Below, piece after piece: positions 3,035-4,260 of a DNA stretch of 33,709 nt. The position numbers and the translations under genes were made by a program. Origin of the DNA: Nanobdellota archaeon. GTDB taxonomy: Archaea; Nanobdellota; Nanobdellia; SCGC-AAA011-G17; GW2011-AR17. The notes under the pieces are model-generated. The model made no database searches and had not been told where the DNA came from. It worked only from the letters and a program-made list of their open reading frames with translations. Every line of letters starts with the position of its first letter. The first letter of the stretch is position 1. The stretch spans positions 1 to 33,709 of the forward strand of contig DUKS01000022.1 of assembly GCA_013329215.1 (NCBI GenBank), written 5' to 3'.

Positions 3035-3060
3035 ACCTCGATTATCCATTCTCCTAATAA

Positions 3061-3257
3061 GTGAAGCCCGTAAAGGGCTTTTCTAACAGGCGAGTGCGAA
3101 ACCGAAGTCTTTAGTTTCGCTATCCGGAAGGATAATCTCATGTGATGCTCTTGAAGCGCTGCTTGCGCTATGCTGTTAGGCACCAACCTGCAGACAGGTT
3201 GATCATCAGGGCGGGCTAAAGCCCACCTATGCGCTACGACGCAATCATGGCGCACTA
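3061..3257 (+). ncRNA. Candidate structured 5' leader RNA of the L3 operon
   Basis: At least seven helices: GAAGCCC/GGGCTTT, long-range CTAACAG(3083-3089)/CTGTTAG(3173-3179), GCGAAAC/GTTTCGC, TATCC-GGAA-GGATA, AGCGC/GCGCT, CAACCTG-CAGA-CAGGTTG, GGGC-TAAA-GCCC, TGCGC/GCGCA. Confidence 0.6.
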
Positions 3258-3279: not shown

Positions 3280-4260
3280 ATGGCAGGCTCTAATCAAATG
3301 CACCACCCCCACAGGGGAAGCATGCAGTTCTGGCCCAGGAAAAGGGCAGCGAGAGCTTTGCCGAGAGTGAGAAACTGGCCCGTAACAAAAGAAGTCAAGC
3401 TTGAAGGCTTCATAGGCTACAAGGCAGGCATGACTCACGCAATGGTTACAGACAAAAACCCCGGCTCTCCTACAAAAAACATGGACGTCAGCAGGGCTGT
3501 GACAATAATCGAGTGCCCGCCCATGAAAGCAATGGCAATAAGGTTCTACAGGAACACGCCTTACGGATTAAATCTTGTTTCTGAATTATTCTCGCAAAAG
3601 TACGAAAAGGAGCTAATCAGGAAAACAAGGCCCGGCAAGAACACTGAAGTGCCTGCTGAGTTTGACGACCTGAGATTAGTCGTGTACACGCAGCCGAAGC
3701 AGACAGGCATCGGAAAAAAGCAGCCTGACGTGCTTGAAATAGGCATTGGCGGTACTGACAAGGCACAAAAGCTGGAATATGCAAAAGGGCTTTTGGACAA
3801 GGAAATAAAAGTTTCTGAGCTGTTCAAGGAAGGCCAGCTGATTGACGTGCACGGAGTCACAAAAGGAAAGGGCTTTCAGGGCACTGTAAAGAGGTACGGA
3901 GTCAAGAGGCGCCAGCACAAGTCAGAAAAGACAATAAGGGGCGTTGGAACACTAGGCTCATGGCACCCCAACAGGGTCCAATATACAGTTGCGCAGCCAG
4001 GCAAGATGGGCTATCACCAGAGGATAGAATACAACAAGATAATATACAAGATAGGCAGCAACCCGGCTGATGTCAACCAGGACGGCGGAATCACGCATTA
4101 CGGAATAATAAAGAACGATTATGTCTTAATCAAGGGCTCTGTCCCGACTGTAAAGAAAAGGGCGCTTGTCATTGCGCAGCCGATGAGGCCGTGGCAGAGG
4201 TTCAAGCAGACGCAGCCTGAGATAACATACTTAAGCACAGCATCAAAGCAGGGATTATAA
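3280..4260 (+). CDS. rpl3: 50S ribosomal protein L3 (uL3)
   Basis: MHHPHRGSMQFWPRKRA..., GTVKRYGVKRRQHK..., first gene of the S10/spc-type cluster. Confidence 0.96.
   Translation: MAGSNQMHHPHRGSMQFWPRKRAARALPRVRNWPVTKEVKLEGFIGYKAGMTHAMVTDKNPGSPTKNMDVSRAVTIIECPPMKAMAIRFYRNTPYGLNLVSELFSQKYEKELIRKTRPGKNTEVPAEFDDLRLVVYTQPKQTGIGKKQPDVLEIGIGGTDKAQKLEYAKGLLDKEIKVSELFKEGQLIDVHGVTKGKGFQGTVKRYGVKRRQHKSEKTIRGVGTLGSWHPNRVQYTVAQPGKMGYHQRIEYNKIIYKIGSNPADVNQDGGITHYGIIKNDYVLIKGSVPTVKKRALVIAQPMRPWQRFKQTQPEITYLSTASKQGL

Follow-up and report, generated by a model that had tools for sequence, protein, structure and literature searches.

The segment preceding the ribosomal protein L3 gene in a 33,709-nt stretch of archaeal DNA (the window) is most likely a new archaeal ribosomal leader, which would control the L3-L4-L23-L2 operon. 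Judged from the sequence, positions 3056–3182 are the predicted 5′ untranslated leader of the operon mRNA; the last third of the stretch singled out in a preliminary description is excluded. We consider it probable that the hairpin/pseudoknot of this leader, together with the next hairpin, is a protein-binding cis-regulatory RNA of the ribosomal leader type, because such a role fits its location, its restriction to one site, its structure, and the invariant letters of its loop. Regulatory RNAs known from archaea are few, and our searches turned up no described example from this lineage of tiny, symbiont-like organisms, in which the leader would probably act as a switch matching ribosomal-protein synthesis to need. 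The features of the region are collected in Table 1.

Table 1. Positions of features around the L3 operon leader in the window
Feature	Positions	Strand	Basis
L3-operon TATA box TTTATAAA	3025–3032	+	Read in sequence
5′ hairpin, GAAGCCC-GUAAA-GGGCUUU	3063–3081	+	Genus comparison
Long-range helix, 5′ arm CUAACAG (partner 3173–3179)	3083–3089	+	Sequence kept in genus
Proposed H-type pseudoknot, 5′ strand AGGC (partner GUCU, 3107–3110)	3088–3091	+	Alignment
Core hairpin S2, GCGAAAC, 11-nt loop CGAAGUCUUUA, GUUUCGC	3096–3120	+	Covariation
Hairpin P3, UAUCC-GGAA-GGAUA, directly after S2	3121–3134	+	Compensatory changes in genus
Long-range helix, 3′ arm CUGUUAG	3173–3179	+	Sequence kept in genus
Inserted dispersed repeat: hairpin CAACCTG/CAGGTTG, ATCATCAG, hairpin GGGCTAAAGCCC	3184–3255	+	Absent in G001 and G002
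Ribosomal protein L3, first gene of the operon	3280–4260	+	Pfam PF00297, E 1.3e-82

Locus and predicted transcript

The window is one contig of a 1.4-Mb archaeal draft genome, and its L3 gene is followed by L4, L23, L2, S19, L22, and S3. Across the taxonomic order to which it belongs, we located L3 in 98 of 103 genomes and obtained 95 usable upstream regions; L4 lay directly 3′ of L3 at each locus with enough sequence. The TATA box that the preliminary description had placed before the leader was borne out by reading the sequence. It began 30–33 nt 5′ of a conserved CCCTACTG in 33 of 40 relatives; the first base of CCCUACUG lay 30–33 nt from the TATA start in 33 of 40 cases, and this fixed spacing places CCCUACUG at the predicted RNA 5′ end. 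From the TATA spacing alone, we predict that transcription starts near 3056, about 31 nt from the first base of the TATA box. The distance from the core motif to the start codon varies among genomes, so that no sequestration mechanism is evident, and the leader sequences, read by eye, contained no conserved start codon of an upstream ORF.

Compared with 200 dinucleotide shuffles, none of which folded as well, the full 224-nt leader had a folding z-score of −3.9, and the 127-nt leader preceding the insertion gave z = −2.7 (again 0 of 200 shuffles). Folding energy by itself is weak evidence for a structured RNA.

Core hairpin, proposed pseudoknot, and inserted repeat

The core motif consists of UUCU, an A-rich linker, AGGCGA, 1–3 bases, the hairpin S2 of 4–8 bp, and then a second hairpin. 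It was present before L3 in 36 of the 95 usable regions, representing 10 families of the order, and the 11-nt loop of S2 has the consensus NGAYGUCUWWA. We aligned 30 distinct rows from nine families, excluding G032 because of its longer loop. The inner four pairs of S2 were 100% standard in these 30 sequences, and 55 of 120 cells carried changes in both partners. Pairing fell to ~51% when the partner strand was shifted by one base, and slid controls reached at most 52%. Relatedness was handled by thinning, without a tree, and the covariation held in 18 near genus-level representatives (31 of 72 cells). The outer pairs of S2 were padded with N to fit and are not countable as independent evidence. 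The homology search upstream of L3 in relatives, which the preliminary description had suggested, revealed a conserved leader in which S2 covaries strongly. The broader proposal of that description, a structured leader before the L3 operon, is supported by the exclusive location, the conservation in 10 families, and the strong covariation, but the part after ~3183 turned out to be a repeat.

A second hairpin follows S2 directly or after 1–3 nt in most members of families f1, f4, f6, f9, and f14 (combined p 2.7e-17 versus shuffles, relatedness not modelled), and the sequences of these hairpins are unrelated. Differing hairpin sequences with a kept structure argue for RNA rather than DNA recognition. 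In the window this hairpin is P3, a GGAA-capped hairpin found where it had originally been drawn and bearing compensatory changes within the genus. The best-supported helices are 3096–3102/3114–3120 and 3121–3125/3130–3134. In a DNA search of 60 relatives, 3043–3173 was conserved in each of the three congeners. Comparison of the four genus members showed that a single pair of the 5′ hairpin had changed in a compensatory way (C-G to U-A), and there was also a single change on one side only.

We judge it probable, from the alignment, that an H-type pseudoknot forms between the GUCU of the S2 loop and the preceding AGGC; the list of helices in the preliminary description did not include it. This pairing was possible in 30 of 30 aligned sequences, and a fifth pair failed in 5 rows. 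The changes noted were G-U to G-C, seen twice (G004 and G039), and, in the G032 row outside the alignment, GGGC facing GUCC by inspection, an A-U to G-C change. Because the strands are mostly invariant, the support that they give is moderate.

The pseudoknot strand has bases 3088–3089 in common with a 7-bp long-range helix (CTAACAG/CTGTTAG) that had been proposed to enclose the hairpins. This helix can form where it was described, and all four genus members retain it, with six of seven pairs in G002 and G003. No covariation was seen in it among these four genomes, and covariation is therefore uninformative for this helix; it is also missing when the full 224 nt are folded to minimum energy. 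Other families do not generally have a counterpart of it (combined p ~0.15), and we dropped the idea of a general closing helix around the core as unsupported across families. Because both pairings use bases 3088–3089, they may be competing, alternative states in the window's genus.

The 7-bp hairpin CAACCTG/CAGGTTG, which had been counted among the leader helices, does exist at 3184–3190/3195–3201, but it belongs to a genus-specific repeat and not to the leader. We assign 3184–3255 to an inserted repeat because it is absent in G001 and G002 and related copies are scattered elsewhere. In those two of the three congeners, TGTTAG is joined directly to ACACTATATATA, where the window has ~72 nt in between, bounded by GCAC at 3180–3183 and 3252–3255. 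The DNA search of 60 relatives detected 3184–3216 as a separate, scattered repeat, and each of the four genus genomes has related copies at other sites. The 5′ hairpin of the copies differs compensatorily (CAACCTG/CAGGTTG, CAAACTG/CAGTTTG, CAAATTG/CAATTTG, and CAAGCTG/CAGCTTG) and is followed by ATCAWCAG, a GGGC/GCCC hairpin, and sometimes extra hairpins. The repeat is ~55–150 nt long and often lies at gene ends or beside tRNA genes. Near L3 it was inserted twice independently, in the window's genome (G000) and in G003, where the beginning of L3 holds the copy and ~27 nt of the start region stands on either side of it; G003 therefore has two copies of the L3 start codon region.

Distribution and upstream elements

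When the core covariance model was run over the 103 whole genomes, matches with E < 1e-4 occurred once per genome, all just before L3, and the core was always on the L3 strand and adjoining L3. The weaker matches away from L3 that we inspected had no leader context and were discarded as chance: those in G044, G056, G066, and G168 lay inside KH-domain genes, and those in G046, G001, and G012 fell within or close to other coding sequence. Extending the scan to 377 genomes sampled from the phylum yielded a sole new match, again inside a KH-domain gene, and none that was real outside the order. At the sensitivity of the model and the stricter filters used, the motif looks restricted to the window's order.

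No Rfam 15 family reached its gathering score in the window. The preliminary description had not recognized the leader as RNase P, SRP, or tRNA; the archaeal RNase P and SRP models matched above cut-off elsewhere in the genome and not in the window, confirming that the leader is neither of these two. We found no leader of this lineage in Rfam or in the open-access literature searched.

Two further elements lie upstream: GCCGCUGAUUCUAG and, where the RNA is predicted to begin, CCCUACUGAU. CCCUACUGAU occurred in 41 of the 95 upstream regions, versus 8% in shuffled sequence, and GCCGCUGAUUCU in 54 of 95, versus 5%; at least one element, core or upstream, was found in 79 of 95. Counting against a regulatory leader, the pseudoknot is missing from many families of the order, which retain just the upstream elements, and several genomes lack both. 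The window's genus has lost both upstream elements in recognizable form and kept UUCUAACAGGCGA.

Family f10 (G026, G043, and G060–G064) has a different conserved leader before L3, GCGUUGC...GCAAAAA...CGCU.AUUCU with a CACACCCUGAAAAGGAUGCG hairpin, and may have the AUUCU element in common with the leader of the order. In families f2, f8, and f13 (e.g. G037 and G041), an apparent second TATA ~30 nt before the L3 start codon, 3′ of GCCGCTGATTCTAG, suggests an additional leaderless transcript. The pseudoknot core of G051 and G073 seems to sit inside a long helix, AAAUGGUGGC/GCC(A)UUUAAUA; their relatives have a similar AUUUAAUA hairpin 5′ of the core instead.

Candidate ligands and alternative readings

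If the leader is regulatory, an operon ribosomal protein in excess over rRNA would bind the folded core, and the bound core would lower the translation or transcript yield of the operon. L4 and L3 would be the first binding candidates, from the content of the operon and from precedent. In E. coli, the leader of the S10 operon, which holds L3, L4, L23, and L2, is regulated by L4. That leader differs in being bacterial and in having the S10 gene first; its comparison with the window in sequence and structure is through the Rfam scan. Pseudoknots in ribosomal mRNA leaders are known from the S4 leader of the alpha operon and the S15 leader, which serve other operons and proteins; in the window, the proposed pseudoknot does not include the start codon. 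In position, the nearest precedent is the Archaeoglobi L4 leader candidate, which is likewise upstream of rplC-rplD-rplW-rplB and is proposed to bind L4 (Eckert and Weinberg 2020, PMC7247131). That survey listed four archaeal leader candidates. The L4 candidate is reported only from Archaeoglobi and rated borderline there (PMC7247131); we liken it to the window's leader by position.

A response to something other than an operon protein, such as a small molecule (riboswitch), another RNA-binding protein, or an RNA partner, is unlikely in our estimation, even though the invariant unpaired GGCGA, loop GA, and GUC and a compact pseudoknot are also typical of ligand-binding RNAs. Mimicry of 23S rRNA, whose absence would favor such a ligand and count against an operon protein, was sought by sequence and with the core model at the 23S loci, and nothing beyond chance was found. 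Riboswitches usually control multi-gene pathways, however, and this motif was found only before the L3 operon; ribosomal operons are moreover classic targets of their own proteins (PMC7247131). Separately, a weak match between GATGTCTTTAG and 23S UAUGUCUUGAG was dropped, as the strand pairs with the 5′ region of the rRNA in the Rfam LSU structure.

We give still less credence to a passive 5′ UTR element that has no regulator of its own and would serve to stabilize the mRNA or to load ribosomes. The motif is modular and has been lost or replaced in several families, and in some families a second TATA seems to lie near the start codon, all of which would suit such an element; the invariant loop letters and the covariation across 10 families nevertheless exceed what a generic hairpin needs.

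The upstream elements bear a resemblance to rRNA. The CUGAU of both equals the 5′ strand of 16S helix 11, and CCCUACUGAU is complementary to 16S GATCAGTAGGGG (helix 11/12 region, 3′ strand) in most genomes carrying CCCUACUGAU. No covariation between CCCUACUGAU and 16S was visible in the 16S genes compared, where the letters hardly vary when the element is present. It is conceivable, and in our view very improbable, that the leader senses ribosome assembly via RNA, in which case unassembled 16S could pair with CCCUACUGAU at the mRNA 5′ end. Families f1 and f7 lack CCCUACUGAU and mostly differ at the 16S GATCAGTAGGGG stretch; G009 (f1) and others break this pattern.

A free-standing small RNA located before L3 by chance is more improbable yet: it would explain a TATA box of its own at a fixed distance, but not why the motif is always on the L3 strand, adjoining L3, and never elsewhere. 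Least probable of all are DNA sites for promoter or factor binding, to which CCCTACTG at the predicted start site (a potential initiator) and GCCGCTGATTCTAG, often just 5′ of the second TATA in f2, f8, and f13, might point, as the core hairpin is located 3′ of the TATA box and shows the covariation of an RNA helix.
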